Of a DNA stretch of 64,000 nt, positions 6,449 through 23,293 are shown one piece after another. The stretch comes from Rhodocyclales bacterium (GTDB taxonomy: Bacteria; Pseudomonadota; Gammaproteobacteria; Burkholderiales; Rhodocyclaceae). The notes beneath the pieces were generated by a model. It was not told the origin of the DNA and made no database searches. It saw nothing but the letters and a program-made list of their open reading frames with translations. Location: positions 310,001 through 374,000 of the forward strand of contig JACRMV010000001.1 in the NCBI GenBank assembly GCA_016235025.1, in the 5' to 3' direction. Each line of letters begins with the position of its first letter. Positions within the stretch are counted from its first letter, which is position 1. A program made the position numbers and the translations under genes.

Positions 6449-6468
6449 TGTCGGAATTTTTTACATTC
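6449..6468 (+). promoter_or_regulatory. candidate upstream activating site (PrsR?)
   Basis: TGTCGGAATTTTTTACATTC lies 62 bp before the -24 GG of the PEP-CTERM gene promoter. A closely matching element (14207-14226) lies at the equivalent place before the other sigma-54 promoter of the window. The ends TGT...ACA form an imperfect dyad. Assignment to PrsR is inference. Confidence 0.55.
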
Positions 6469-6529
6469 AGCCAAAGCCAAACTTCGGTCTCAAATAGAAA
6501 TAACAGTATTATCATGATGTTGCATGTTA

Positions 6530-6545
6530 TGGCACGGCATCTGCT
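6530..6545 (+). promoter_or_regulatory. sigma-54 promoter of PEP-CTERM gene
   Basis: TGGCACGGCATCTGCT matches the -24/-12 consensus TGGCACG-N4-TTGCW with one mismatch and the exact GG-N10-GC spacing (GG 6531-6532, GC 6543-6544). It lies about 70 bp upstream of the ATG at 6613. PEP-CTERM genes of Zoogloea are reported to depend on RpoN with PrsK/PrsR, and both regulator genes are in this window. Confidence 0.8.
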
Positions 6546-6612
6546 TTATAAGGCTCGGGCGGTGTCTTTGATGTGCTCGACAACGAATGTCTAATCTTTG
6601 AAGGAGTGGATA

Positions 6613-7506
6613 ATGAAGAAATTTACAAAACTGGCCATGGTTGCTGCTGTCGCCGCGGCTACCAGCTTCAGCGCAGCCGCAACACCGGTGACCGAGTTTT
6701 TCTTTTCGCAATCAGCCGGTATCGTCAATCCGACGACTGATGCGGATGCAGGCACTTTCTTCAATTCAGGCAGCGGACTGACCTTTGGCGGTACCTCGGC
6801 GTTATTGTCTAACCCTCAGTATCCGACGGGAACAGCCACCACCATGAGCTGGAAGGGTGCAGGCGCCAATTCGCTGAACCCGACTGATGCCTCGAGTTCC
6901 TTGTCCGTCAACACGTACACGAGCAATACCAGCGTGGAAGTTTCGGGGAATGGGGATGCCTCGTGGAATGAGGGCGAAGTCTGGAGGATTACCAATCTTC
7001 ATCATCACAATGAAGCCTTGTTGCTTGCCCAAGGCGGCGACATCGCTTTGCTAAGCCCGCTCTGGGTTGCCGATATCGTGGCCAATTTGCGTATTTTCAG
7101 TGACTCTGTGGGCGGAACGTTGGTTCATGATGAGTTGGGCAGCACAAACCGGATTTCCTTCAATGAAACGTATAACGCAGGCGGAAGCTGTCCTTTTGGC
7201 AGCCCCCACACTACAGTTTGCGATGATATCTACACGGACTTGGACCCATTGGCTTTCGCACCCACAACGTTCTGGTACAACGGCATTCTGTATGAACTGA
7301 CTTTTGGCTTGGAAGCGGGCCCGGGAGCGATTATTGTCTTCGATCCGTTGTTGCGGGTGTTCACGGCAGAAAACTTCCCTGGTGACAGCGATATTTATGT
7401 CACCATGGCATGGCGTGCCGTACCGGAGCCGGGCTCCCTTGCTCTAGCCGGTCTTGGCCTCACCGCATTGGCTGCTATGCGCCGCCGTAAAAATACGGTT
7501 TCCTGA
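6613..7506 (+). CDS. PEP-CTERM sorting domain protein
   Basis: A 297-residue exported protein that an exosortase would process. It has a signal peptide (MKKFTKLAMVAAVAAATSFSAAA), a Gly/Ser/Thr-rich body and a C-terminal tripartite sorting signal: VPEPGS (about residue 270), a hydrophobic helix LALAGLGLTALAAM, and the basic RRRK. A segment RITNLHHHNEAL resembles the signature of THxN-type PEP-CTERM proteins, though this subfamily call is uncertain. The start at 6613 is preferred over 6598 because AAGGAG lies 7-8 bp upstream. Transcription is predicted from the sigma-54 promoter at 6530 and ends at the terminator after 7534. No exosortase gene (xrtA/epsH) is in the window, so it must lie elsewhere. 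Confidence 0.93.
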   Translation: MKKFTKLAMVAAVAAATSFSAAATPVTEFFFSQSAGIVNPTTDADAGTFFNSGSGLTFGGTSALLSNPQYPTGTATTMSWKGAGANSLNPTDASSSLSVNTYTSNTSVEVSGNGDASWNEGEVWRITNLHHHNEALLLAQGGDIALLSPLWVADIVANLRIFSDSVGGTLVHDELGSTNRISFNETYNAGGSCPFGSPHTTVCDDIYTDLDPLAFAPTTFWYNGILYELTFGLEAGPGAIIVFDPLLRVFTAENFPGDSDIYVTMAWRAVPEPGSLALAGLGLTALAAMRRRKNTVS

Positions 7507-7533
7507 ACGCTGGATTTTCAGTCAGTAAATTCA

Positions 7534-7562
7534 AGGGCTGCTCATCGGGCAGCCCTTTTTTA
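7534..7562 (+). terminator. rho-independent terminator
   Basis: AGGGCTGC and GCAGCCCT form a strong stem with a short loop followed by seven T residues, 27 bp after the PEP-CTERM stop codon. It separates this gene from the PP-loop pair. Confidence 0.9.
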
Positions 7563-7616
7563 TTGCCTGAAACATTAGAATCAAAAAATACAAAAGATAA
7601 GCAGGCTGGAGAAAAA

Positions 7617-8858
7617 ATGCGGTTTTTGAAGGGTGACGTGTTGCCTTCTCCCGAAACATCAGGGTATGTGCGAACTTCTGGCGAACTAGTCTGGGGGCGC
7701 GGGAAGACATTCCAGCTTTGGGTTGACGTCCCTGAAGCCTATGCAGAAAGTCTTTCCGATACGGGGAATCCGTGGTTGTTGGCGATGCTGCCGATGGCAG
7801 CGAGTCTGGGTGAAGACATTGAGTTGGCGCTTCCTGTGGATGCGCTGCTTCTTGAGAACGTCAAAGGGGTGCTGGCAATTTGGCGGGAATGGTATCCGGA
7901 ACTGCATGATGTCCGTATCCATTGCCCGGTACAGTCTTATCAAGCGCAAGGTCAAGTACCCTCTGCCAGGCGCACGGCGGCATTCTTTTCGGGCGGGATC
8001 GACTCTTATTTCACCATAGCGAGGCGCATGCCGGGGAACGAGTTCGGGATACCTGCGGTGGGGAAGGTGGATGATCTGCTGACCGTCTGGGGCTTTGATG
8101 TCGGAGTGTATGACGAAGCCCAGTTTCGCCCGCTGGCGAATATGCTGGCGACAAGTGCGCGGCAACTAGAGTTGCGACAGATTGTTTTTCGAACCAATCT
8201 GCGTGCCGCAGAAAAATTGATCCCTTTCAAAGATATGTGGCGACGGTTGAGTCATGGCGCTGGATTGGCTTTCATCGGTTTAATCCTTGAGAAGGCCTAT
8301 AAAGAAGTGATGATTGGTTCTTCATATACCTATGGAAGCTTATTCCCATGGGGGTCGCATCCGCTCCAAGATGTCCTTTTTTCTACATCGGTGCTCCAAA
8401 TCGTACATGATGGCGCGAGCTTTACCCGCGTCGAAAAAACCGATGTGGTGGCCAGGCTGCCGGTCGCACAAGCCGCGCTGCATGTGTGCCTTGCGCAGGG
8501 TGATAGCAACTGTTCGCGGTGTGATAAATGCTATCGAACCATGATGACGCTTGATTTGCTGGGGCATCGTGAGCATGCCGGTGAGCTATTTGATTGGTCG
8601 GGTTATCGGGTAGAGGCTATCCGCAAACTTTTTATACGCAGCAAGGGTGACAGGATTTTCAGGAGCGACATCATTGCGGCAGCAAAAAAATACCATCGCC
8701 AGGATATTGTGGATGCACTCAAGGCTGCCGAACGTCGCTCAAAAGTGCTTCGGCCGCTGGTTAAAATAAGCGAGTGGTTAATGACCTGGCCCGGAATATG
8801 GCGTCTGGGAATCAGCGCCAAAGCTTTTTTGCTGCGCGGCCCGATTCGCAAGATTTGA
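7617..8858 (+). CDS. PP-loop ATP-pyrophosphatase-like protein, copy 1
   Basis: 413 residues. The nucleotide-binding PP-loop motif SGGIDS (about residues 124-129, in FFSGGIDSYFT) is that of N-type ATP pyrophosphatases such as QueC and asparagine synthetase, which adenylate a carboxylate or similar group before nucleophile attack. A CSRCDKC cluster (about 298-304) followed by YRTM looks like the Zn-binding CxxCxxC of QueC-like enzymes. No QueC function is implied; the rest is unlike QueC and the family is unknown to me. The start at 7617 follows GGAGAAAAA; a TTG at 7563 lies in the terminator. A paralogue begins one base after its stop. Possibly modifies a secreted peptide or glycan made by this locus (inference). 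Confidence 0.75.
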   Translation: MRFLKGDVLPSPETSGYVRTSGELVWGRGKTFQLWVDVPEAYAESLSDTGNPWLLAMLPMAASLGEDIELALPVDALLLENVKGVLAIWREWYPELHDVRIHCPVQSYQAQGQVPSARRTAAFFSGGIDSYFTIARRMPGNEFGIPAVGKVDDLLTVWGFDVGVYDEAQFRPLANMLATSARQLELRQIVFRTNLRAAEKLIPFKDMWRRLSHGAGLAFIGLILEKAYKEVMIGSSYTYGSLFPWGSHPLQDVLFSTSVLQIVHDGASFTRVEKTDVVARLPVAQAALHVCLAQGDSNCSRCDKCYRTMMTLDLLGHREHAGELFDWSGYRVEAIRKLFIRSKGDRIFRSDIIAAAKKYHRQDIVDALKAAERRSKVLRPLVKISEWLMTWPGIWRLGISAKAFLLRGPIRKI

Positions 8859-8859
8859 T

Positions 8860-10119
8860 ATGCAGCTGATTGATCTGGAAACGGGTGTTTCGCCGGAAAC
8901 CACGAAAAGTATTCGACAAACGGCGAAAATTTCTCACGGCGACAATCAAACGATAATTTTGTGGGTCGACGTTCCGGAGGCCTATGCCGAGGGTCTTTCC
9001 GATACAGGGAACCCGTGGCTGTTGGCGATGCTGCCGATGGCAGCGAGCCTGGGTGAAGACATTGAGTTGGCGCTTCCTGTGGATGCGCTGCTCCTCGAGA
9101 ATGTCAAAGGGGTGCTGGCACTCTGGCGTGAATGGTACCCGGAACTGCACGATGTTCGCATCCATTGTCCCGTACTGTCTTATCGGCCATCGCAGACCAC
9201 TCGCACGGCAGCCTTTTTCTCCGGCGGCATTGACTCTTATTTCACCATAGCGCGGCGCATGCCGGGGAACGCGTTCGGGATACCCGCGGTGGGGAAGGTG
9301 GATGATCTGCTGACCGTCTGGGGTTTTGATGTCGGAGTGTATGACGAAGCCCAGTTTCGCCCGCTGGCTGACAAACTCGCGGGAAGCGCCGCCGCCATGA
9401 ACTTGAATCACATCATTGTGCGTACCAACTTGCGCGAGGCCGCCGAAGTCTTCAAAAAAAGCTGGGGCCCGCTGACCTTTGGGGCGGGATTGGCATTTAT
9501 TGGCGCCATATTGGAGAGACGCTTCGGTGAGGTTGTGCTGGGCTCTTCCTACCCTTATGGCGGGCTCATGCCGTGGGGATCGCATCCCATGGTCGACATC
9601 CTTTTTTCAACATCATCACTTGGCATAGCGCATGACGGTGCGAGCTTTACCCGTATTGGAAAGACCGAGATTATGGCGAGGCTTCCTGAAGCTGAAAAGT
9701 CACTACATGTTTGCCAAGCCGCAGGTATTGAAAATTGCTCCCAGTGCGAGAAATGCTATCGCACCATGATCGCGCTGGATATTTTGGGGAAAAGGAAAGC
9801 TTTCACAGGGGTTTTTGACTGGACGCTCTACGTTGTGGAAAAAATTAAAACACTCTATATCGGCGGGGGGGGCGCACAGATTTTTTATCACGAAATGGTG
9901 AGCGTTGCGAAAGATGCGGGACGGACTGACATTGCAACTGCGCTACTTGCGGCATCGCGGCGCTCAAGCAGAATGGCGCCCCTGGTGCATTGGGCGGATT
10001 GGCTCGCTCGCCAGCCTGTGGTGTGGAGATTCGGGGTTGCGTTACGTGCCTTGGTTTTAAGCGGCTCTATTGGGCCACAATATATCCGTCATGCGGCAAA
10101 AGCTTCCGTGTCAGGGTAA
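8860..10119 (+). CDS. PP-loop ATP-pyrophosphatase-like protein, copy 2
   Basis: 419 residues, paralogous to the gene ending at 8858, with the same order of features: SGGIDS at about 120-125 and CSQCEKC at about 293-299. The N-terminal halves of the two proteins are nearly identical (for example LSDTGNPWLLAMLPMAASLG and the segment from GKVDDLLTVWGFDVGVYDE), while the region after about residue 175 diverges, as does the first 35 residues. Tandem placement with one base between genes implies co-expression and possibly a heterodimer. Function unknown; the enzyme class is inferred from the PP-loop and cysteine cluster only. Confidence 0.75.
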   Translation: MQLIDLETGVSPETTKSIRQTAKISHGDNQTIILWVDVPEAYAEGLSDTGNPWLLAMLPMAASLGEDIELALPVDALLLENVKGVLALWREWYPELHDVRIHCPVLSYRPSQTTRTAAFFSGGIDSYFTIARRMPGNAFGIPAVGKVDDLLTVWGFDVGVYDEAQFRPLADKLAGSAAAMNLNHIIVRTNLREAAEVFKKSWGPLTFGAGLAFIGAILERRFGEVVLGSSYPYGGLMPWGSHPMVDILFSTSSLGIAHDGASFTRIGKTEIMARLPEAEKSLHVCQAAGIENCSQCEKCYRTMIALDILGKRKAFTGVFDWTLYVVEKIKTLYIGGGGAQIFYHEMVSVAKDAGRTDIATALLAASRRSSRMAPLVHWADWLARQPVVWRFGVALRALVLSGSIGPQYIRHAAKASVSG

Positions 10120-10205
10120 TGCCCTTTTAATGAGTCTATTTTCACGATCGGGGGGTTATCTGCACGCAGTATGATTGCTTCCAGGTTGTCCTGAATAAAA
10201 TCAAT

Positions 10206-11429
10206 GTGATCCTATCCGCGCTGACGAAACTCGCCCTCCGTAACCTGCTGCGCCATCGTCGTCGCGCATTGATCGCCATATTTTCGGTGGCTTTGGGAAC
10301 AGCGGCGCTGGCAGTGGCCAGCGGTTTTATCGCCGGGATGTTCGCCGACTTTCGCGAAGCGACGATCGAGTCGCAGTATGCGCATATCCAGATCACGCGG
10401 CCGGGTTATCACGAGAATGGCCTGGCGGATCCTGCCCGGTATTTATTGCCGAATGATGCAGCGGCAAAAATGTTAAGCACGCTGCCGCATGTTCGTGCCT
10501 GGGGGCCACGACTTGGACTGACGGGTTTGATCAGTCATGGCGAATCCACACTTTCTTTCGTTGGCGAGGGATTTGATCCTGCGCATGATTTGACGGGCGA
10601 CCGCTCTTTGAAGATTGTCCAGGGGCATCGTCTGGGCGCCGCCGACCATGACCGGATTTTGCTGGGCAAGGGGTTGGCAACGCTCCTGGGGGTTCAGGCG
10701 GGCGATGCCGTGGTGGTGTTGGTGGATACGCCTGCCAGTGGCTTGAGCGCCATTGATGCAAAAGTGGCCGGGGTGTTCGAGTCTGTGAGCAAGGCGTATG
10801 ACGATAGTGCGCTGCTGGTTCACATTCAAGCCGCGCGCAAACTGCTCAAGGTGGAGGGTGCGCATGGCTGGCTGGTTTATCTGGATAAAACAGAGAATAC
10901 CCCGAGCGTGGCGGAAGACTTGCGCACGCGCTTTGGCGCCCCCGGATTCGAGGTGCGCACCTGGGATCAGCTGGCGGAGTTTTATCGGCGGGCGGTGGAT
11001 CTGTTCCAGCAACAGCTGGACGTAGTTCGTTTTATCGTGGTGGCGATTATCTTGCTGGGGATCAGCAATACGATGATGATGAGTGTGATGGAGCGCACCG
11101 GAGAAATCGGCACCGCCATGGCGCTTGGGGTGCGGCGACGCATTCTGCTCGGGCAGTTTTTGTTGGAAGGCGCGTTCATTGGATTGCTGGGCAGCCTGGC
11201 CGGGCTTGCGCTGGCTGTCATGATCGGGTGGGGTATCGATGCGCTGCATATTGATATGCCGCCGCCGCCGGGGCTGACGCGGGGCTATCTTGCGCATCTG
11301 GTCTTTACGCCGGCGACAGCGGTGGAGGCGCTGCTGGTGGGCCTCGGCACTACGACGCTGGCGAGTCTGTATCCGGCCTGGCGGGCATCGCGCATGGTGA
11401 TCGTGGATGCGATCCGCCATAACAAATAA
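10206..11429 (+). CDS. FtsX-type ABC permease, copy 1
   Basis: 407 residues with the MacB/LolC topology: one N-terminal membrane helix (ALIAIFSVALGTAALAVASG, about residues 22-41), a large periplasmic domain, and three C-terminal helices (from VVRFIVVAIILLGISNTMMM onward). FtsX permeases pull lipoproteins or peptides out of the inner membrane using a LolD-like ATPase. The start is GTG at 10206. It is followed by a second permease after 9 bp, so the two may form a heterodimer. The best partner ATPase in the window is at 1788-2573. A short AT-rich gap of 86 bp precedes it and no promoter stands out there. Confidence 0.85.
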   Translation: MILSALTKLALRNLLRHRRRALIAIFSVALGTAALAVASGFIAGMFADFREATIESQYAHIQITRPGYHENGLADPARYLLPNDAAAKMLSTLPHVRAWGPRLGLTGLISHGESTLSFVGEGFDPAHDLTGDRSLKIVQGHRLGAADHDRILLGKGLATLLGVQAGDAVVVLVDTPASGLSAIDAKVAGVFESVSKAYDDSALLVHIQAARKLLKVEGAHGWLVYLDKTENTPSVAEDLRTRFGAPGFEVRTWDQLAEFYRRAVDLFQQQLDVVRFIVVAIILLGISNTMMMSVMERTGEIGTAMALGVRRRILLGQFLLEGAFIGLLGSLAGLALAVMIGWGIDALHIDMPPPPGLTRGYLAHLVFTPATAVEALLVGLGTTTLASLYPAWRASRMVIVDAIRHNK

Positions 11430-11438
11430 GGGGGCGGT

Positions 11439-12659
11439 GTGTTCGGGCTCTTCAAGTTAGCCAGTCGCAATGTTTTTCGGCATCGTGGGCGCACGCTGAT
11501 GACGCTGGCGTCGATTGTGTTTGGCGTGGCTGCGCTGATTCTGGCGGGCGGTTTCATCGAGGATACGATCGTGGAGACGGGCGAATCCATGATTCGTTCA
11601 AGCACCGGCCATCTTCAAGTTGCCCGTCAGGGGTATTGGCAATACGGGGTGCGCAGTCCGGAAAAGTATCTGATGGAGAACCCGGAGACCCTGCGCCGTG
11701 AATTGGCTGCGGCCCCCGGGGTAGAGGATGTGATGCTGCGCATCGGATTTTCAGGGTTGTTGGGCAACGGCCGGACGGATTGGTCGATTGTTGGCGAAGG
11801 GGTGGAGCCATCGCGTGAGAAAAGGTTGGCCAGTTACATCACCGTGCTTGCTGGTCGTCGGCTGGAGGACAGCGACAGGTTCGGCATGATGATCGGTCAG
11901 GGTGTTGCAAGGGCACTGAAACTGCAACCGGGCGATCCTGTTACCTTGCTGGTCAGCACCGCCGGCGGGGCGACTAATCTGCTTGAGTTTCAGGTGACTG
12001 GAGTATTCCAGACTTTTTCCAAGGATTACGATGCACGCGCTGTACGCATTTCCCTGGCGGCAGCCCAGGAGCTGCTGGCGACTTCGGGGGCGCATACTGG
12101 GGTGATATTGCTCAAGAATACGGCAGATACCGATCGCGTCGCGAGCTGGATACAAGACAAACTGGGTAACCAGGCGTATGAAATAAAAACCTGGGTTGAG
12201 CTGAATGTGTTTTATACCCAGACGGTCACGCTGTATCGGCAACAATTCGGCTTTCTGGTGGTGATTATCCTGGCCATGCTGCTGATGAGTGTTTCCAATA
12301 CCGTGAATATGGGCATTTTTGAACGTGTCAGTGAGTTTGGCACCATGATGGCAATGGGGGATCGGTCGTCCCATATTTTCTCGCTGATTGTGTTCGAGAG
12401 TCTTTGGCTGGGCCTTTTGGGTTCGCTCGGCGGGGTGTTGCTTGGTATCGTGTTGGCTCAGGTAATTTCGATGGTGGGGATTCCCATGCCGCCCCCGCCG
12501 AATGCAGACCAAGGTTATATTTCCCATATCTTGGTGGTACCCAAGGTCGTTGCCTTGTCATTTATTGTCGGAACGGCGGCGGCTGTGCTGGCATCTTTCC
12601 GGCCGGCGCGAACGGTCAGCCGCAAACCGATTGCCGATGCCTTGCGCGAAGGAGTCTGA
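11439..12659 (+). CDS. FtsX-type ABC permease, copy 2
   Basis: 406 residues, homologous in layout to the preceding permease: helix at about residues 20-40 (LMTLASIVFGVAALILAGGF), periplasmic domain, then QFGFLVVIILAMLLMSVSNT and two further helices with the MPPPPNADQGYISH loop that parallels MPPPPGLTRGYLAH in copy 1. The GTG start at 11439 follows AAGGGGGCG, 9 bp after the stop of copy 1. Together with the ATPase at 1.8 kb, the LolA-like periplasmic protein and the DUF1302 barrel, it could form a route across the envelope (inference). Confidence 0.85.
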   Translation: MFGLFKLASRNVFRHRGRTLMTLASIVFGVAALILAGGFIEDTIVETGESMIRSSTGHLQVARQGYWQYGVRSPEKYLMENPETLRRELAAAPGVEDVMLRIGFSGLLGNGRTDWSIVGEGVEPSREKRLASYITVLAGRRLEDSDRFGMMIGQGVARALKLQPGDPVTLLVSTAGGATNLLEFQVTGVFQTFSKDYDARAVRISLAAAQELLATSGAHTGVILLKNTADTDRVASWIQDKLGNQAYEIKTWVELNVFYTQTVTLYRQQFGFLVVIILAMLLMSVSNTVNMGIFERVSEFGTMMAMGDRSSHIFSLIVFESLWLGLLGSLGGVLLGIVLAQVISMVGIPMPPPPNADQGYISHILVVPKVVALSFIVGTAAAVLASFRPARTVSRKPIADALREGV

Positions 12660-12812
12660 ATCGGGCGGGCGCTGCAACTTCCGTGGCACTGTCACACAAG
12701 GTATCATGGCCCCTTTATGCAGCTGGATTCACACAAGTTATTTTATGGCCACGATTACTTGTTGTTATCACGAATGCCTTCGTGACATTCTCACGCTCTC
12801 GTCGAGGCATTC

Positions 12813-14198
12813 ATGATCAAGACCGTGCTGGGGCATACACTGCGGACGGCAACTTTGCTGCAGATACTCATCGATTTCAGTTTTATTTTCGTTGGCATCC
12901 TCATCGCAGCCATGTGGGTCAGGAGCGGTTTGCCAATTGATACGGTCTTGCTGGTTTCCTATGCGGGGATTCTCGCCCTGACTTCACTGGTGGTTAATAG
13001 CTGGCTGGGGTTTTATCAACGGATTCATGATCGGACGGTTGAAGATTCGCAGGCGCGGGCGGTGCTGGCGCTTCATCTTTCAGTGCCGATCGCCTATCTG
13101 ATTTTTCTGCTGCTGCCGATTGCGGAAGCAGATCGGGTGTTTCTCGAACTCAGTGGCATGGCTGCGCTCTTTGGCATGTTGTCCCACCGGGTTTTTGCTT
13201 CGCATCGTAAAAGCAGGGCACGTGTCGTTCATCGTATCCTTGTGTTCGGGGTGGGCAAGGAAGCGGCGAAAGTGGCTGCCTCGTTGAACCAGGAAGACCC
13301 GACCATTCAGATAGTGGGCTTTTATCCCGGGCCAATGTGCAAGGAAATAGCGGTCTCTCAAGATCGGGTGCTGCCACAAACGATGCCTTTGGCGGATACC
13401 GCCGTTTTCCACCAGGTTGATGAGATTGTTGTGGCCATAGATGACCGTCGCGGGGGGCGTTTGCCGCTGAGGGAACTGCTTGATTGCCGGGTATCGGGTA
13501 TTTTGGTTCTGGATATGTCGAGCCACTTTGAGCGCATGCTGGGACAGATTCGGCTCGATGCCTTGCGGGCGGGCTGGCTGATTTTTGGCGACGGGTTTCG
13601 TCAGGGGGTGCGACGCTCGTTCATCAAACGGAGCTTTGACATCATTGCGGCTGTGATCCTGCTGATTGTTTTCTCTCCGTTGATGTTGATTACGGCTTTG
13701 CTCATTTTTCTCGAGGATGGCGCTCCGGTGCTTTACCGCCAGGAGCGGGTTGGGCTTAATGGGCGGTTGTTCAATGTGATCAAGTTCCGCAGCATGCGGC
13801 GCGACGCGGAAAGCGACGGGAAGCCGCGCTGGGCGGCTGCGAATGATGATCGCACGACACGTGTCGGGCGCTTTATACGCAAGTTGCGCATTGACGAATT
13901 GCCGCAGCTTTTTTGCGTACTCGAGGGCACCATGAGTATGGTGGGTCCTCGACCGGAACGCGCTTTCTTTGTGGATCAGCTAACCAAGGAAATCCCTTTT
14001 TACGCCATCCGGCACAGCGTGAAACCCGGCGTAACGGGTTGGGCCCAGGTGAGATACCACTATGGTGCTTCGGTCGAAGATGCTGTGCAAAAGCTGCAAT
14101 ATGATCTTTACTATGTCAAAAATCATACCCTCTTGCTGGATCTGGTGATTATCTTTGAAACCGTCGGTGTTGTTGTGGGCGGAAAAGGGGCGCAATAG
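12813..14198 (+). CDS. epsB: PEP-CTERM system-associated sugar transferase
   Basis: 461-residue polyprenyl-phosphate glycosyl-1-phosphate transferase that would attach the first sugar phosphate to undecaprenyl phosphate in exopolysaccharide synthesis. Four N-terminal membrane helices are followed by a nucleotide-binding-like domain (RILVFGVGKEAAKVAAS), then a fifth helix (FDIIAAVILLIVFSPLMLIT) and the catalytic sugar-transferase domain with YRQERVGLNGRLFNVIKFRSM, KLRIDELPQ and MSMVGPRPER. The overall form fits the EpsB-type transferase that travels with exosortase systems. The symbol is given on that basis. Products are likely used with the glycosyltransferases at 27-30 kb. The 153-bp gap upstream holds no promoter that I would call. 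Confidence 0.88.
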   Translation: MIKTVLGHTLRTATLLQILIDFSFIFVGILIAAMWVRSGLPIDTVLLVSYAGILALTSLVVNSWLGFYQRIHDRTVEDSQARAVLALHLSVPIAYLIFLLLPIAEADRVFLELSGMAALFGMLSHRVFASHRKSRARVVHRILVFGVGKEAAKVAASLNQEDPTIQIVGFYPGPMCKEIAVSQDRVLPQTMPLADTAVFHQVDEIVVAIDDRRGGRLPLRELLDCRVSGILVLDMSSHFERMLGQIRLDALRAGWLIFGDGFRQGVRRSFIKRSFDIIAAVILLIVFSPLMLITALLIFLEDGAPVLYRQERVGLNGRLFNVIKFRSMRRDAESDGKPRWAAANDDRTTRVGRFIRKLRIDELPQLFCVLEGTMSMVGPRPERAFFVDQLTKEIPFYAIRHSVKPGVTGWAQVRYHYGASVEDAVQKLQYDLYYVKNHTLLLDLVIIFETVGVVVGGKGAQ

Positions 14199-14206
14199 CC
14201 AAAAAG

Positions 14207-14226
14207 TGTCAGGTTTTCTTACACTC
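14207..14226 (+). promoter_or_regulatory. candidate upstream activating site (PrsR?)
   Basis: TGTCAGGTTTTCTTACACTC matches the element at 6449-6468 at 15 of 20 positions. Its distance to the -24 GG is 10 bp (one helical turn) shorter than in the first case, so both sites face the promoter on the same side of the helix. Confidence 0.55.
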
Positions 14227-14277
14227 TATCTTTCTGGTATTATGGTTTCAAGATATAAATCAGCTTGTTATATGTAT

Positions 14278-14293
14278 TGGCGTAATATTTGCT
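14278..14293 (+). promoter_or_regulatory. sigma-54 promoter of Tat-type secreted protein gene
   Basis: TGGCGTAATATTTGCT has the GG-N10-GC spacing (GG 14279-14280, GC 14291-14292) and the TTGCT of the -12 element. It lies 127 bp before the ATG at 14420. Confidence 0.7.
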
Positions 14294-14307
14294 TATACTT
14301 TGGTGTT

Positions 14308-14419: not shown

Positions 14420-14998
14420 ATGGACTTACCCGGTCGTCTCGCCAGTTCTGAGAGTCAGCCCAAGGAAAACAAGCAGCATACCCGTCGGCGCTTTATCCGT
14501 GGCGTTGGAGTGGCTGTACCCGTCATCATGACGATTCGCTCTTCTTCGGCTTTGTCTGCGCAGTGTTTTGCGCCCTCGGCTGCAGCCTCGATTGCGCTGT
14601 TGCACAGCCGCCTGGATCGCGAGCACGCGGACTGTCTGGGCCGGACGCCGGGGTTCTGGAAAAATGCTGCCAAGCCAGACCATCCCAATCATAATTTTTG
14701 GGTAACTGCGGGCGGGGAAGGCGTTCTATTCTCTACCATATTTGGTAGCGGCTTTCCTGGGAAAACGCTGAAAGATGTCTTGGGCCTTGGGGGGAATCAA
14801 AATTACGAGGCTCTTGGCAGACACTTGGCAGCGGCTTATCTCAACCATCAAATTGGCTGGGTTCCTGATACCGTGCTGAGCATACAAGACCTGATCGACA
14901 TGTGGAACGGTCGTGCAGGTTCGTATTCGCCGACGGCGGGTGTGACATGGAATGCAGATCAAATCGTTGCCTACCTGCTAACGACCATGCCGCTCTGA
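14420..14998 (+). CDS. Tat-type secreted protein with TPGFWKN motif
   Basis: 192 residues, function unknown. The N-terminus has TRRRFIRGVGVAVPVIMTI, a twin-arginine-like signal, followed by SSSALSAQC. The mature part carries CLGRTPGFWKNAAKPDHPNHN, a motif seen in several secreted or cell-surface proteins, and no membrane anchor or sorting signal at the C-terminus. The start at 14420 is supported by GAAGGAG seven bases upstream; an upstream in-frame ATG at 14378 lacks a good site. It has its own sigma-54 promoter, upstream element and leader hairpin, and is followed by the PqqD-like/HprK-related genes, so it may be a product handled by that set (inference). Confidence 0.65.
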   Translation: MDLPGRLASSESQPKENKQHTRRRFIRGVGVAVPVIMTIRSSSALSAQCFAPSAAASIALLHSRLDREHADCLGRTPGFWKNAAKPDHPNHNFWVTAGGEGVLFSTIFGSGFPGKTLKDVLGLGGNQNYEALGRHLAAAYLNHQIGWVPDTVLSIQDLIDMWNGRAGSYSPTAGVTWNADQIVAYLLTTMPL

Positions 14999-15040: not shown

Positions 15041-15310
15041 TTGTTCGAAAGCAACTTGTTCTCTGTGCCCCGTTTGAATCTCGATGTACGCCCCTGCGAG
15101 GATGGCATCTTGGTCTACGACCACACGGCACGTACAACACATTTGATTCATCCCGCAACGTGGGATTTTTTCGTTTCTCTATCACAGTCAAACCCCTTGG
15201 CGGCACAGTTTGATCTGGGCGAACTGGATGCCGAGATGCCGACGGATGGAAATAACCGTCTGGCAATGGTCAATGCGCTGGAGCGTGCGGGTCTCATCAT
15301 GCGATGCTGA
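15041..15310 (+). CDS. PqqD-like peptide chaperone of HprK-related system
   Basis: 89 residues with the PqqD fold pattern (a beta-rich segment LDVRPCEDGILVYDHTARTTHLIHP, then helical DFFVSLSQ). PqqD-type proteins hold a precursor peptide for a modifying enzyme. It overlaps the next gene, an HprK-related kinase, by 7 bp, which is the arrangement of the so-called HPr-rel-A system in exosortase-bearing bacteria. The start is uncertain: TTG at 15041 is the longest reading, GTG at 15065 is an alternative; neither has a strong ribosome-binding site. Confidence 0.75.
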   Translation: MFESNLFSVPRLNLDVRPCEDGILVYDHTARTTHLIHPATWDFFVSLSQSNPLAAQFDLGELDAEMPTDGNNRLAMVNALERAGLIMRC

Positions 15311-16224
15311 GGCTGGACGCTGTTACAGATGCCGACTTTGCACGTAGCTTGCGAGGCGGCACGTTCCGGCTCCAGGTAGGTGGGTTCGCAATACGCATTG
15401 ATAGCGACTCTGCGGCGCTTCGTTCCGGGTTGCGCCAAGTGTATGCCCATTATCCGGTATCACTTTCGGGTGGTTGCTATGATTTTGATCTCGCCATTCG
15501 ACCGGCATCTTTTTTGCGGCGTTGGTTCCGGCCGAATGTTGTTTTTTCCCTTTCCGGTCAAGCGCCTTTTCTGCCCATGGCGGCCGATCATGCGCATGCA
15601 TTGTTCGAATGGGGGCTGAACTGGACGATAGGCAGCTCGGTTCATCAATACCTTATTCTTCATTCGGCGGTTGTCGAGAAGCAGGGCAAGGGAATCATGC
15701 TGTCGGCTGCCTCGGGCAGCGGAAAGAGTACGCTGACAGCAGAACTGGCGCTGCGCGGCTGGCGGCTTTTCTCGGATGAACTGGCCTTGATTGACGGGCC
15801 GGCATTAAGGCTGACTCCTTTTCCGCGTCCTGTCAGTTTGAAAAACCAGTCGATCGATCTGCTGCGCAGGCGGCATCCCGGAGCGCAGTTTGGCCCATTG
15901 GCGCACGATACCCAGAAGGGGACGATTGCCCACCTGCGGGCGCCTGATGAGTCGATTGATCGTGCTACTGAAACGGCGCCGCCTTCATTGATTATCTTTC
16001 CCAAATGGACAACTGGCGCGCCGCTACGCGTGCAGCCCGTGGGTGCAGGGCAAGCGGCCATGCGCCTGATTGACCAATCCTTCAACTACCCCGTGCTGGG
16101 GCCGCTGGGGTTTTCACGGCTGGCTGATCTGGCGCAATCTGCTCCGGCCTGGGAACTTGAATACTCATCGCTGGACGATGCTGTCGCTGCACTCGATGAC
16201 CTGCTGGCCGACGTTGATGCCTAG
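15304..16224 (+). CDS. HprK-related kinase A
   Basis: 306 residues related to the C-terminal kinase domain of HPr kinase/phosphorylase. The P-loop is SAASGSGKSTLTAEL (about residues 134-148), followed by WRLFSDELALID, where the SDE segment matches the second acidic motif of HprK. The N-terminal part is unlike HprK regulatory domains. It is sandwiched between a PqqD-like gene (7-bp overlap) and a nucleotidyltransferase-like gene (8-bp overlap). Its phosphorylation target is not known; HPr itself is not encoded nearby. Confidence 0.85.
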   Translation: MLRLDAVTDADFARSLRGGTFRLQVGGFAIRIDSDSAALRSGLRQVYAHYPVSLSGGCYDFDLAIRPASFLRRWFRPNVVFSLSGQAPFLPMAADHAHALFEWGLNWTIGSSVHQYLILHSAVVEKQGKGIMLSAASGSGKSTLTAELALRGWRLFSDELALIDGPALRLTPFPRPVSLKNQSIDLLRRRHPGAQFGPLAHDTQKGTIAHLRAPDESIDRATETAPPSLIIFPKWTTGAPLRVQPVGAGQAAMRLIDQSFNYPVLGPLGFSRLADLAQSAPAWELEYSSLDDAVAALDDLLADVDA

Positions 16225-17290
16225 CCCATCTCCGTTGCTCAATTTTCTGGCTGACCACTCAAGCGCTACGCATCTGGATGCCGAAGGCTGGAGCCTGCTG
16301 CTGGCCGAGGCGCGGGCGTGTGGCGTGATGGCGCGGGTCGCCAAGGTGCTGGCGCAGGATTACCCGACGCTACTGTCATCTGATGCGCCATGCCAGGTGA
16401 TGCCGCATATTGTTTCGGCCATTCGGCAGAGTGATAGCCTGGCGCACGATGTACAGCGCGAGCTGGCTTTTTTGAGTGATGCGCTGGCAGATGTGGACAC
16501 GCCGGTATTGCTGCTCAAAGGCGCGGCGTATTGCGCGGCTGGGCTGCCCGCAGCGCGCGGGCGGATATTCTCCGATATTGATCTGCTGGTTGCGCGGCCT
16601 TTTCTTCCCCGGGCAGAGGCGGCCCTGATGCTGGGTGGCTGGGCGGTGAGCAAGCAGGATACATATGACCAGCGCTATTACCGCGAGTGGTCACATGAAA
16701 TACCGCCAATGACGCATTTGCAGCGGGGAACAACGATTGATTTGCACCACTCGCTGGCCATGCCGACTTGCCGTATTCACATCAATTCCGGACAAATGAT
16801 TGCAGCAGCCGTTCCCTTGCCCGGGCCGGGAAACTGGTTTCGTCTTGCAGACGAAGATATGGTTTTGCATGCCGCAAGCCACCTGTTATTGAATTCGGAA
16901 TTTGATCGCGGCTTGCGGGATTTGTGGGATATCGACTTGCTGATGCGGCATTTTGAAAACACAACGCCGAATTTTGCCCATCGGGTTCTGGTGCGCGCCG
17001 AGACTGTGGGTCTGGGGCCGATTACCCGTTGCGCTTTTGCGTTGTGCCACCGCTTCTTTCGCACGCCATTGCCGCAAGAGACATTGGCTGGTCGCAGCCT
17101 TTTGTCATGGCTATTGGCCAGTGCAGCCACTACGCGCCATCCACAGACGCGGCCGCGTGCCCAGGGGGTGGCCGATCAGTTGCTATTTGTGCGGGAAATG
17201 ACCTTGCGTTTGCCTGTGCATTTGCTGGTGCGCCATTTGTGGCACAAGACCACAGCGGGAATCAAACCGCGGGAAAATGTGCCGGTTTAA
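16217..17290 (+). CDS. nucleotidyltransferase family protein
   Basis: 357 residues of the NTP_transf_5-like family found beside HprK-related kinases. The core is LLLKGAAYCAAGLPAARGR then FSDIDLLV, where DIDLLV supplies the paired aspartates of a nucleotidyltransferase. The start at 16217 overlaps the kinase stop by 8 bp. The C-terminus is helical and basic. The stop codon (17288-17290) overlaps the stop codon of the convergent protease gene. Enzymatic activity and substrate are unproven for this family. Confidence 0.8.
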   Translation: MPSPSPLLNFLADHSSATHLDAEGWSLLLAEARACGVMARVAKVLAQDYPTLLSSDAPCQVMPHIVSAIRQSDSLAHDVQRELAFLSDALADVDTPVLLLKGAAYCAAGLPAARGRIFSDIDLLVARPFLPRAEAALMLGGWAVSKQDTYDQRYYREWSHEIPPMTHLQRGTTIDLHHSLAMPTCRIHINSGQMIAAAVPLPGPGNWFRLADEDMVLHAASHLLLNSEFDRGLRDLWDIDLLMRHFENTTPNFAHRVLVRAETVGLGPITRCAFALCHRFFRTPLPQETLAGRSLLSWLLASAATTRHPQTRPRAQGVADQLLFVREMTLRLPVHLLVRHLWHKTTAGIKPRENVPV

Positions 17291-19029: not shown

Positions 19030-21804
19030 CTATAGACCTTTGCTCAGTTCAACAACTTCGGCGTGGGCCGGGAAGGTGTTCCCTAGCTTGGAGAGCGTAT
19101 CCAGTGCCTGTTTGGCCTCTGTTTTTTTGCCTGCCTTGATGAGCGCTTTGGCGTAACTCAAGCGAATGTCATTGTTTTGAGGTTCGAGCGCAACGGCCTT
19201 GGCGAGGAGGTCTACCCCTGGAGCAATATTTCCCTGCGCGACATAGAGCGAGCCCAGGGTTTCCATGATGGCGGGTTGGTTCGGCGCCAGCTTGTTGGCC
19301 TCTTCGGCATAGGATATTGCCTTCGGATCATGCAACTGCCCGAGCGACCAAGCCAGATTGTTCAGTACGGCCGGGTTTTTTGGAGCGGCCGCGAGTACGG
19401 CGCGGTAGTGGGTTACCGCCGTTGCGTAATCGTTACGCTTGTTTGCCAAATCGGCAATGAAGAGACGAAAGGCCTGGTCATTCGGATGCGCTTTGATCCA
19501 GGAGTCGGCTGTACCGCTGGCTTCTGCCGTCTGGCCACCCTGAAACTGGGCAATGTACAGACGGCCCGCCAGATCGCTGGTGGGCGCCGCCTTGAGGCCG
19601 GTACGGTAGGCTGCTGCGGCTTCTTTCCAGGCTTTCTGGGCAAGCTGGATGTCTCCTTCGAGAAGATATCCAGCGGCTTCCTTGGGCTGGGCCTTCTGGA
19701 TGGCGCGTGCGATAGTCAGTGCATCGTTAAAGCGTCCTTCTGCGACATTCAGCATGATCTGGGCGCGTTGCAGGGGAAGCGAATCTGGCTGGTTGGTCAG
19801 CCCTTTGGTCAAAGTGTCACGTGCGGCCTGGTTATTTTTGGCGGCGAGCTGGATTTCTGCAATCCGAAGATAGGCTTGCGGATTATTGGGCAGCAGGTTG
19901 GCGAGTTTGTTATAGGCTGAAAGCGCCTGGTTGGTGTCCCCTGCAAGTTGAAATACCTGCCCGGCGACGCCGAGAATTTCCGGACTGTTGGGAATGGCCG
20001 CCAAGGCTTCTTCTGTGGCAGCGCGCGCTTTATCTTTGTCTTTGGTACTGAGCAAGAGGCTGATCAATGCAAAACGTGGTGTTGCCTCATTGGGAGCTGC
20101 CGCAATAGCTTTCTTGAGCAGGCTGATGACCTCATCCTGGCTGGCTCCTGTACGCGCTTTCAGCTGGGCCAAGGCAAGCATGGCCTGGACATTTTTCGGG
20201 TCTTTGTCCAGTACGGCTTGATAACGCTGGCGTGCCTGGTCAATTTTCTTTTCGGTCAGGTCAATGAAGACAAGATTGGTGGCTGCAGGTAAATAGGTGG
20301 GTTCAATTGCCAGTGCTTTTTCAAAGTTTTTCCGTGCGGCTTCCAAATCCTTTTTGCCAAGCAGCGCCTGACCCCGCAGGTTATAGACTGCCGGGGTGTT
20401 TGGTTGCTTCTTTTCCAGCTGGGCAATGGCCAGGAGCGCCTTGTCGAAATTTTTCTGGCGCATGGCCGAAGCGATCAGCGCCATGTCGGCTGAGATACCC
20501 GTATCACTGGCTGCAATCTGCTCCAGATCGGAAAATGCTTCCTGGGTGTGGCCCAGACGCATTTGCGACAAGGCCAGAGCGGTCTTGGCCCGGTTATTTT
20601 TCGGATCACGCTGCGCTGCCTGGCTAAAAAGTTCAGCCGCACGCTCGGCATCCCCGCTTTGCATATGGGCTTCGCCAGCCAGCGCGAGCCAGACGGGAGA
20701 CGTCGTGGCTCCTTGCAATACCGGCGCTAATGCGGCCAAGGCTTTTGCCGCCTGGCCGCTGCGCAGATAGGATGTGACGAGTATGCGGCGGCTGTAATCG
20801 AGCCCCGGAGCGCTTTTCAAGGCTTTGCCGAGATATTCCTGAGCCTGAACATCCGAGCGGTTCTGATAAGCGATGGCGCCTGCCAGCTGCAATCCTTGCG
20901 GATTATCCGGCTGCATTTTTAACAAATTGCCCACGGCGCTCTGTGCGGCTGCGATATCTTTTTTGCTGAAGGCAAGCAGGGCTTCCAGATACACCGTTAA
21001 GGGCTGCTTGGCAGCGATTTTTTGCATCTCGGCCAGCTGTTTGGTTGCCAGATCGATCTTGCGATCTTGCAGCTGAAGCATGATGATATTGGCGTGTACG
21101 GAAGCGGAACGTGGTCTGAGTTCAAGCACTTTTTGGTACGCCGATAATGCATCAGGAAGCTTTTGCTCTGCGCGTTTGATATCTCCCTTGAAATGCCATG
21201 CATCGGCTTCCTGTGGATTTTTGACCAATACTTCGTCCACTATTTTGCTGGCGTCCGCCAGGTTGCCTTTCATGGCTTGCAGACGGGCCAGTCCGAGTTG
21301 GGCGGGAGCATAGTCTTTCTTGGCGTTCAAGGCTTCATTAAATGACGCTTGCGCCATATCAGGATTGCCTAGCAGCACATAGTTTTGACCCAGTACGGTT
21401 TTTAGTTCAGCAAGTTCGTCGGCATTGGCAGTGGACGTTTTCGCCAGTTCGTCGATGACTTTCTTTGATTGCCCTTGCACCATCAAAGCACGTGCTAAAA
21501 GTGGGGCGACCTGCCCCGCAGGCGCTTTGAGTTCAATGGCTTTACGAAGCTCGACCTCGGCAGCAACAGGATCGCCGCTGTCCAGAAGCGCCCGCCCAAG
21601 CAGCAGGCGGGCCTCGGCTGAAGAAGGCTCCTTGCTGAGGGTATTTTTGAGCTGAATGATGGCTGCTGCCGGATCACCTTTTTCGAGATAATCTTTGGCG
21701 GATGCCATCATTTTTGCTGGCGAACCGTCACTGCATCCGAGGACGATCAATGTTGCGGTGAGTGCCGCCATTTTCGTGAGCCGGAGTTGAGTGTTTTTTC
21801 TCAT
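19030..21804 (-). CDS. prsT: PEP-CTERM system TPR lipoprotein PrsT
   Basis: 924 residues made almost entirely of tetratricopeptide repeats, preceded by a lipoprotein signal with the lipobox VLGC (about residues 21-24). PrsT-type giant TPR proteins accompany exosortase/EPS loci and are thought to act as scaffolds at the envelope. Repeats of the form A..GDYATA..YR..L...P are visible from about residue 35 to the C-terminus. It follows prsR after 127 bp, where a separate promoter could lie, although I see no GG-N10-GC match there. It is followed closely by the lytic transglycosylase gene. Confidence 0.92.
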   Translation of the reverse strand: MRKNTQLRLTKMAALTATLIVLGCSDGSPAKMMASAKDYLEKGDPAAAIIQLKNTLSKEPSSAEARLLLGRALLDSGDPVAAEVELRKAIELKAPAGQVAPLLARALMVQGQSKKVIDELAKTSTANADELAELKTVLGQNYVLLGNPDMAQASFNEALNAKKDYAPAQLGLARLQAMKGNLADASKIVDEVLVKNPQEADAWHFKGDIKRAEQKLPDALSAYQKVLELRPRSASVHANIIMLQLQDRKIDLATKQLAEMQKIAAKQPLTVYLEALLAFSKKDIAAAQSAVGNLLKMQPDNPQGLQLAGAIAYQNRSDVQAQEYLGKALKSAPGLDYSRRILVTSYLRSGQAAKALAALAPVLQGATTSPVWLALAGEAHMQSGDAERAAELFSQAAQRDPKNNRAKTALALSQMRLGHTQEAFSDLEQIAASDTGISADMALIASAMRQKNFDKALLAIAQLEKKQPNTPAVYNLRGQALLGKKDLEAARKNFEKALAIEPTYLPAATNLVFIDLTEKKIDQARQRYQAVLDKDPKNVQAMLALAQLKARTGASQDEVISLLKKAIAAAPNEATPRFALISLLLSTKDKDKARAATEEALAAIPNSPEILGVAGQVFQLAGDTNQALSAYNKLANLLPNNPQAYLRIAEIQLAAKNNQAARDTLTKGLTNQPDSLPLQRAQIMLNVAEGRFNDALTIARAIQKAQPKEAAGYLLEGDIQLAQKAWKEAAAAYRTGLKAAPTSDLAGRLYIAQFQGGQTAEASGTADSWIKAHPNDQAFRLFIADLANKRNDYATAVTHYRAVLAAAPKNPAVLNNLAWSLGQLHDPKAISYAEEANKLAPNQPAIMETLGSLYVAQGNIAPGVDLLAKAVALEPQNNDIRLSYAKALIKAGKKTEAKQALDTLSKLGNTFPAHAEVVELSKGL

Positions 21805-21931: not shown

Positions 21932-23293
21932 CTAGGATTTCAGCCCGAACTTATGCATTAAATCATACAGAGTCGGGCGACTGATGCCAAGCAAGTCGGC
22001 TGCCCGTGCCAGATTGCCGTTACTGCGGCTGACAGCCGCGATGATGGCCTTGCGTTCGGCTTCGTCGCGGATTGTGCGCAGGTCAAGTGTCATCGTGTTT
22101 TCTTCTGATACTTGATCCAGTCCAACATCCTGTGCGGACAGGGCGGTACCTTCCGCCATGATGGTTGCGCGTTTGAGGCAGTTTTCCAGTTCGCGTACAT
22201 TGCCTGGCCATGGGTAGGCAGAGATGGCGTGTATCGCTTCTTCGCTGAGTGAAAGTGTGCTGCGATTTTGTTCGCGGGTAAACCGGCGAATGAGCGCGTG
22301 CGCAAGTAGCGCGGCATCGCCGATGCGATTCCTGAGAGGGGGGATCGTGATGACTATTTCAGCCAGGCGGTAATAAAGGTCTTCACGGAAGCGGCCTTCG
22401 CGAATCAATGTCTTCAAGTCCTGATGCGTGGCGCAGACAACGCGTACATCAATAGGGATTTCTTGTCGGCCGCCGACCCGCTCGATGACCCGTTCCTGCA
22501 GGAAGCGCAGCAGCTTGGACTGCAACGTCAAGGGCAGGTCACCAATTTCGTCCAGCATCAGCGTGCCTTTATGTGCCATCTCGATTTTCCCCGGGGTGGT
22601 TTTTGCTGCACCCGAGAAGGCTCCTTTTTCATAGCCGAACAGTTCGCTTTCAAGCAGGTTTTCCGGAATCGCTGCGCAATTGATGGCGACGAACCGGGTG
22701 TCGCGCCGGGGGGATGCATTGTGCAGGCCGCGCGCAAGCAGCTCTTTGCCGGTACCGCTTTCCCCCAGCAGCAAGACTGTCGCATTGGTGGGCGCCACTT
22801 TTTCTATGGTGCGGCAAATTCGCAGCATTTCCGGATCGCGCGTGATGAGTGCGCCCAGGGCGTCAGGCTGTTGCATTGCTTGCAAGCGGTGGTTTTCTTG
22901 CTGTAAATCGTAAAAACGGAAGGCGCGTTCAACCGTCAGATTGAGTGTCTCCGGTTCAAAAGGCTTGACGAAAAAATCATACGCACCCAGTGCTACGGCG
23001 CGTAGCGCGTTGGCCTGTTCGTTTTGCCCGGTCAAGACAATGACTTTCGTGTCCGGGGCGATGGCCATGATTTGCTCCAGCAGCCTGAAACCTTCGGAGA
23101 CCGAGTCTGCGTCCGGAGGCAAGCCAAGATCCATCGTGATAACCGCTGGCGTGTAGCGGCGGATTTGCGAGAGGGCACTTTCGCGGTCACCGGCAAGCAG
23201 CACATCATATTGGTCAAACGACCAGCGTATCTGTTTTTGTAACGCAGGATCATCTTCTACGACCAGTAATTGACGTAATTTTTCTGTTGTCAT
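21932..23293 (-). CDS. prsR: PEP-CTERM response regulator PrsR (sigma-54 activator)
   Basis: 453 residues: receiver domain with the phosphoacceptor Asp in TMDLGLPPD (about residues 50-58), AAA+ domain with Walker A GESGTGKELL and the sigma-54-contact loop GAFSGA (GAFTGA in most activators), Walker B region GTLMLDEIGDLP, and a Fis-type helix-turn-helix at the end (LARAADLLGISRPTLYDLM). It activates RpoN-dependent promoters; the PEP-CTERM gene (6530) and Tat-protein gene (14278) promoters are likely targets. Its start overlaps the prsK stop by 4 bp. Confidence 0.95.
   Translation of the reverse strand: MTTEKLRQLLVVEDDPALQKQIRWSFDQYDVLLAGDRESALSQIRRYTPAVITMDLGLPPDADSVSEGFRLLEQIMAIAPDTKVIVLTGQNEQANALRAVALGAYDFFVKPFEPETLNLTVERAFRFYDLQQENHRLQAMQQPDALGALITRDPEMLRICRTIEKVAPTNATVLLLGESGTGKELLARGLHNASPRRDTRFVAINCAAIPENLLESELFGYEKGAFSGAAKTTPGKIEMAHKGTLMLDEIGDLPLTLQSKLLRFLQERVIERVGGRQEIPIDVRVVCATHQDLKTLIREGRFREDLYYRLAEIVITIPPLRNRIGDAALLAHALIRRFTREQNRSTLSLSEEAIHAISAYPWPGNVRELENCLKRATIMAEGTALSAQDVGLDQVSEENTMTLDLRTIRDEAERKAIIAAVSRSNGNLARAADLLGISRPTLYDLMHKFGLKS

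Follow-up and report, generated by a model that had tools for sequence, protein, structure and literature searches.

Two 20-nucleotide (nt) elements in a 64,000-nt window of a Rhodocyclales bacterium genome (assembly GCA_016235025.1, contig JACRMV010000001.1, positions 310,001 to 374,000 of the forward strand; coordinates below are those of the window) are very probably boxes for the NtrC-type activator PrsR, acting as helically phased enhancers of sigma-54 promoters with a bend of the integration host factor (IHF) type in between. The elements, TGTCGGAATTTTTTACA (from 6449) and TGTCAGGTTTTCTTACA (from 14207), here called A and B, are identical at 15 of 20 bases; an earlier, sequence-only reading had reported this agreement, and both are present where it placed them. 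Each contains a 17-bp core described by the pattern TGTCGNNNTTTNTTACA, which has 13 fixed positions and leaves positions 6, 7, 8 and 12 free. The features of the two sites, in order, are:

6449..6465, plus strand: putative PrsR box A, TGTCGGAATTTTTTACA; 17-bp core, 13/13 fixed positions
6510..6522, plus strand: IHF-like site A, TATCATGATGTTG; matches 8/9 positions of the consensus, its centre lying 13.5 bp upstream of the first base of TGG
6530..6546, plus strand: predicted sigma-54 promoter A, TGGCACGGCATCTGCTT; TGG-N10-GCT
6613..7506, plus strand: gene for a THxN-family PEP-CTERM protein, target of A (NF038125, 86.9 bits; TIGR02595, 20 bits; PF07589, 27.8 bits)
14207..14223, plus strand: putative PrsR box B, TGTCAGGTTTTCTTACA; 17-bp core, 12/13 fixed positions
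14258..14270, plus strand: IHF-like site B, AATCAGCTTGTTA; matches 8/9 positions of the consensus, its centre lying 13.5 bp upstream of the first base of TGG, placed as in A
14278..14294, plus strand: predicted sigma-54 promoter B, TGGCGTAATATTTGCTT; TGG-N10-GCT

The -24 GG of promoter A occupies 6531-6532 and its GC 6543-6544; in promoter B they are at 14279-14280 and 14291-14292. These coordinates bear out the distances given earlier, 63 and 53 bp from the ends of the 20-mers to the -24 GG of GG-N10-GC promoters, and correspond to 66 bp (A) and 56 bp (B) from the ends of the cores. With at most one mismatch in the 13 fixed positions, exactly two boxes are found on both strands of the window, namely A and B, and both have TGG-N10-GCT on their 3' side; 200 windows generated by a first-order Markov model held a mean of 0.04 boxes and no box-promoter pair. 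The earlier suggestion of a sigma-54 enhancer is supported. The probability that the two sequences resemble each other by chance appears vanishingly small. What speaks for chance is that the pattern of the original 20-mer, allowing up to two mismatches, matches six places genome-wide against four for its reversed control, so that the two-mismatch matches are at noise level; the three of these have no promoter or a poor one and were dismissed as noise, and the three with no or one mismatch have good promoters. Chance is refuted by the empty Markov windows together with the reversed controls in other genomes described below, which gave none among the matches listed.

Judged from sequence, A and B represent a type of site already known. 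The sequence-only reading took the binding site of PrsR to be undefined, which is incorrect in that form. A 17-nt motif 1 whose 3' end reads TTTACA had been predicted by Haft et al., 2006 (PMC1569441), who found it ahead of 99 of 167 PEP-CTERM genes from Proteobacteria, at a mean of 62.8 nt (standard deviation 10.6, range 32-92) before a sigma-54 motif 2, and regarded PrsR as the protein likely to bind it. Compared by its text description, that site is like A and B in its 17-nt length, its 3' end and its spacing; the gaps from core to TGG, 64 nt in A and 54 nt in B, both fall inside the published range. Box A ends in TTTACA and box B in CTTACA, a variant found in 18% of 51 sites from other genomes (see below). 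PrsK and PrsR are encoded in the genomes concerned, as here, and the target is a PEP-CTERM gene, as at A; B's target is not. The implied claim that both targets are PEP-CTERM genes holds for A, with its three family matches, and fails for B, which gave no PEP-CTERM match. Since a few further motif 1 sites are described upstream of other genes (PMC1569441), a PEP-CTERM target is a usual rather than a strict feature of the published site.

PrsR is indeed encoded in the window, as had been noted earlier, together with PrsT and PrsK, and RpoN is encoded in the assembly (457.5 bits):

19030..21804, minus strand: PrsT (TIGR02917, 861.6 bits)
21932..23293, minus strand: PrsR, an NtrC-type activator with receiver, sigma-54 AAA+ and Fis-type helix-turn-helix domains by Pfam (TIGR02915, 738 bits)
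23290..25404, minus strand: PrsK (TIGR02916, 821.8 bits)

In the organism's own genome, TIGR02595 gave eight matches, seven of them over the cut-off, and the search proposed for the motif upstream of PEP-CTERM genes found a box with a promoter at five of these seven, at box-promoter distances of 62, 66, 66, 66 and 76 bp; B is a sixth site. For other genomes, a strict pattern was used, consisting of the core, 41 to 101 nt and TGG-N10-GCT, with its reversal as control. In the class it matched 32 times, in 24 of 369 genomes, and in the order 71 times, in 39 of 300 genomes; the reversed pattern had no place in either set among the matches listed. Merged, the places number 96, in 61 genomes and 31 families. 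Alignment of 51 strict sites on the box gives TGTCGRnWTTTYTTACA, a dyad of 6-5-6 layout with outer TGT/ACA and R/Y at positions 6 and 12. The 6-5-6 dyad is the layout of NtrC sites.

The targets of the 51 strict pairs comprise 23 PEP-CTERM proteins (by an expression for the C-terminus), four truncated genes, two proteins with a twin-arginine translocation (Tat) signal (by expression), 21 others and one site without an open reading frame (ORF). Eight of the others have PEP-CTERM-like tails and two are Tat-like when judged by eye; the remainder, such as GGDEF-type proteins at two truncated loci, are either unexplained or false. Also by eye, the strict pairs upstream of a GGDEF-type protein are in two genomes of one genus, and another strict pair stands upstream of a multihaem-cytochrome-like protein; by sequence, both kinds of gene are possible further PrsR targets.

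Co-occurrence and the literature both support PrsR as the regulator. Of the 369 genomes of the class, 106 gave a PrsR match, among them 21 of the 24 with a strict pair (Fisher p = 8e-10); the converse is weak, a strict pair being found in 21 of the 106 PrsR genomes, because the pattern is strict. Some genomes carry at least two copies of PrsR, and one of them has four. Rajeev et al., 2011 (PMC3333781) report that DVUA0057 of Desulfovibrio vulgaris, the PEP-CTERM regulator predicted by Haft et al., enriched five predicted PEP-CTERM targets in vitro (by DAP-chip), its binding motif not being validated there; it is of the PrsR type and has PEP-CTERM targets, as here, in a different bacterial class. 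PEP-CTERM genes of Zoogloea are reported to depend on RpoN and PrsK-PrsR, and mutants in PrsK or PrsR to lose their flocs; in the accessible literature no PrsR footprint was found. It is very unlikely that the boxes are bound by some other NtrC-type sigma-54 activator, a view for which one may cite that the dyad layout is shared by such activators, that 3/24 pair-bearing genomes gave no PrsR match, and that two other Desulfovibrio response regulators have a few targets in common with DVUA0057 (PMC3333781). The association with PrsR and the DVUA0057 enrichment argue against it, as does the presence of PrsR in 20/21 genomes with a boxed HprK-related cassette (set 1 below), although the 7/9 among genomes with unboxed cassettes makes that comparison a weak test of the association.

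The helix-face claim of the sequence-only reading could not be decided from two distances and holds on a pool of 105 distinct box-promoter pairs, 93 of which are in register. The pool combines 50 pairs, mostly upstream of PEP-CTERM genes, with 55 from HprK cassettes; the two HprK promoter sets have one promoter in common, and a few of their members are also in the strict set. The 96 merged spacings fall at 53-55, 60-67, 71-78, 84-89 and 94-99 bp, with one at 43, and none at 68-70, 79-83 or 90-93 bp, and the 105 pairs cluster near 54, 65, 76, 87 and 97 bp, with a best period of 10.8 bp (bootstrap 10.55-11.05). The offset from this grid is 1.1 bp for A and 2.0 bp for B. When the main peak of the strict set alone fixes the phase, 19/21 and 31/35 HprK cassettes are in register within 2.5 bp, against an expected 46%; this is the cleaner test, because the phase of the 105-pair pool was partly set on its own members. 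The 39 spacings outside the main peak, taken alone, still give R = 0.676, reached in 0 of 20,000 sets. By sequence, the helical phasing of box to promoter is real.

Pairs within one family are not independent of each other, and related genomes do have like spacings (71, 72 and 74 bp in one genus, for example), as would be expected if a few ancestral spacings had been copied by descent, without selection for a helix face. Such inherited phasing is nonetheless highly unlikely to be the explanation: the period survives the collapsing of families (n = 77, R = 0.676, not reached in any of 20,000 sets with a jitter of up to 8 bp) and the drawing of one pair per family (31 families, 200 draws), where p is at its floor of 1/501 for both the median and the 95% quantile. 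Several spacings of the series also occur within one genome (56, 66 and 76 bp in the present one), and two gene classes have different spacings and the same phase.

Aligned on the -24 element, the spacers show, about 20-32 bp upstream, a signal similar to YAA-N4-TT(G), which resembles the reversed IHF consensus. The consensus used was WATCAANNNNTTR, and a site matching at least 8 of its 9 positions was called IHF-like. Such a site is present in 63 of the 105 spacers, 30/50 of the mostly PEP-CTERM pairs and 33/55 of the HprK pairs; flanks of equal length have 4 and 5 upstream and 1 and 5 downstream. The centre of the minus-oriented site lies about 25.5 bp from the -24 element in the first group and 36.5 bp in the second, one turn apart, and this distance is itself phased (R = 0.789, 0/20,000). 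From the box to the IHF-like site (44 sites) the distances lie near 29, 39.5, 50.5, 60.5 and 70.5 bp, a single one being 54.5 (R = 0.85, 0/20,000). One alternative is that these matches are A/T-rich curved or UP-like DNA, with no specific ligand or with the polymerase alpha subunit as its ligand. The spacers are indeed richer in A+T (0.67) than their flanks (0.52 and 0.58), no clear IhfA is present in the assembly, and the phasing is independent of a detected IHF-like site. Dinucleotide shuffles of the same spacers yield, however, means of 7.9 (maximum 13) and 6.5 (maximum 14) such sites against the 30 and 33 found, and the sites have a fixed orientation and position, on the minus strand at 25.5 or 36.5 bp; we consider this alternative rather unlikely.

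The target of B is the first gene of a cassette:

14420..14998, plus strand: secreted protein with a Tat signal (TPGFW variant), first gene 3' of promoter B; no Pfam or NCBIfam match
15041..15310, plus strand: small ORF with counterparts in related loci, presumably PqqD-like, a name given from its position
15304..16224, plus strand: HprK-related kinase A (TIGR04352, 343 bits against a cut-off of 200)
16070..17290, plus strand: nucleotidyltransferase (PF14907, 142.7 bits), as the listed ORF, the true start probably lying further downstream

Two sets of related cassettes were scanned with up to 3 mismatches in the 13 positions and a promoter score, a looser rule than the strict pattern. Set 1 comes from the 32 of 200 genomes of the order with TIGR04352 over the cut-off, from which 30 loci were taken; a box with a promoter lies 860-1270 bp before the kinase frame at 21 of them. 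Set 2 consists of the best 80 of 340 relatives, to which all its counts refer; of the 72 with 1500 bp or more upstream, 35 have a box with a promoter, the opposite strand giving 0/80. At all 35 boxed loci a Tat-like ORF can be seen by eye between box and kinase, and one stands upstream of the kinase at 71 of the 74 loci of set 2 with 1400 bp upstream. Sixty-four of these ORFs and the present one have further motifs in common: in the 65-sequence alignment Cys49 is invariant and Ser53 and Ser57 are conserved at 0.95 and 0.97 (C49, S53 and S57 in the present protein), the paired arginines having been selected by the search itself and so being no evidence. A narrower definition of the B gene as a TPGFW family was abandoned for this looser Tat family, the motif being found upstream at only 3/80 loci. 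In three genomes of a single family, a box sits not before but some 2.0-2.2 kb past the beginning of the kinase frame, with its promoter at 53 bp.

We lean, by a small margin of confidence, to the view that PrsR controls a second conserved branch of genes, the HprK-related-kinase-A cassette, whose products are made alongside the PEP-CTERM matrix proteins. In this view the PqqD-like carrier, the HprK-like kinase and the nucleotidyltransferase would serve a Tat-exported family, and the cassette promoters would use their own step of one shared, phased ruler of box, IHF-like site and promoter, with the box at 87 or 97 bp and the IHF-like site at 36.5 bp, where the mostly PEP-CTERM set has 65 or 76 bp and 25.5 bp. 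The gene neighbourhood prompts the guess that the exported Tat protein is what the kinase and nucleotidyltransferase act on.

As we picture it, the 17-bp imperfect dyads TGTCGR-N5-YTTACA would serve as enhancers for sigma-54 promoters that lie one to two hundred bases 5' of their target genes. From what NtrC-type activators do, we infer that PrsK phosphorylates PrsR, which then binds the dyad; IHF, or a different protein from the HU/IHF family, would bend the DNA between box and promoter, so that PrsR on the proper helix face could contact the closed sigma-54 polymerase. Because PrsR would have to sit on that face, the distance from box to -24 would be quantised in steps of about 10.8 bp, and the distances from box to bend and from bend to promoter likewise. 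A would then drive its PEP-CTERM gene as in the known regulon, and B would put the HprK cassette under the same control. What the sequences themselves show are the boxes and promoters, their phasing, the IHF-like sites and the conserved placement of the box ahead of the cassette.

Several observations weigh against this picture. Two of the seven PEP-CTERM matches of the own genome lack a box (one of them a 47-residue frame), and the grid is a poorer fit for the own-genome spacing of 62 bp and for B, which is 2 bp away from it. Besides the three pair-bearing genomes without a PrsR match, 9/30 and 37/72 cassettes have no box with a promoter at the thresholds used; seven of the nine unboxed cassettes of set 1 are in PrsR genomes, and one of the 21 boxed ones is in a genome without PrsR. 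No IHF-like site reaches the threshold in 42 of the 105 spacers, and 37 of these 42 are phased equally well; IHF is therefore not needed for the phasing signal. No IhfA was found over the cut-off in the own assembly, which is 95% complete and has two IhfB-type genes over the cut-off (128.8 and 120.3 bits); IhfA is present in 11 of 12 other genomes of the family, and the missing gene reflects either an assembly gap or an unusual IHF.

An exosortase-associated acyltransferase and an EpsB2-type glycosyltransferase are also encoded in the window. The stretch from the PEP-CTERM gene to the glycosyltransferase gene contains two LolC/LolE-like permease genes in tandem (10206-12659), one of whose ORFs has a weak CasB match that was taken as spurious, and a DevA/LolD-like ATPase is encoded at 1668-2573.

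If correct, the rule that box, bend and promoter of the PrsR regulon are spaced in whole helical turns could be used for promoter annotation in many genomes; the 31 families would provide evolutionary evidence that a promoter-near bacterial enhancer must keep to one helix face, with a repeat of 10.55-11.05 bp, and an uncharacterised Tat-protein/kinase cassette would be linked to exopolysaccharide and floc biology. A literature search, with most subscription papers outside its reach, found no paper on an HprK-related kinase together with PEP-CTERM and none on the cassette components in combination; papers that mention both PEP-CTERM and integration host factor are, by title, not on this question. 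As far as the literature searches show, three things are new: the register of 10.8 bp, the IHF-like element, and the regular place of the HprK-related cassette among the targets.

In the nif promoters served by NifA, IHF and sigma-54, an activator site, an IHF bend and a -24/-12 promoter stand in series; the order of elements is the same here, and the box, the regulator and the genes differ. In the prediction of Haft et al., section 7 gives the mean and spread of the spacer only, without a period, and the terms "IHF", "integration host" and "HprK" are absent from the main text (PMC1569441). The pepA promoter of Aquincola tertiaricarbonis (PMC9850573) has a mapped start site, the elements TGGCAC and CTGCTT, and dependence on RpoN1; CTGCTT also stands at the end of promoter A, and the enhancer upstream of pepA is a prediction. 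For the LuxO/sigma-54 enhancers of qrr genes (PMC4740811), insertions and deletions of 10-11 bp were predicted to be tolerated and those of 5-6 bp not, which was tested on 61 qrr genes; regulator and genes are different, and the property concerned is one of the looping sequence there and the distance from box to promoter here.

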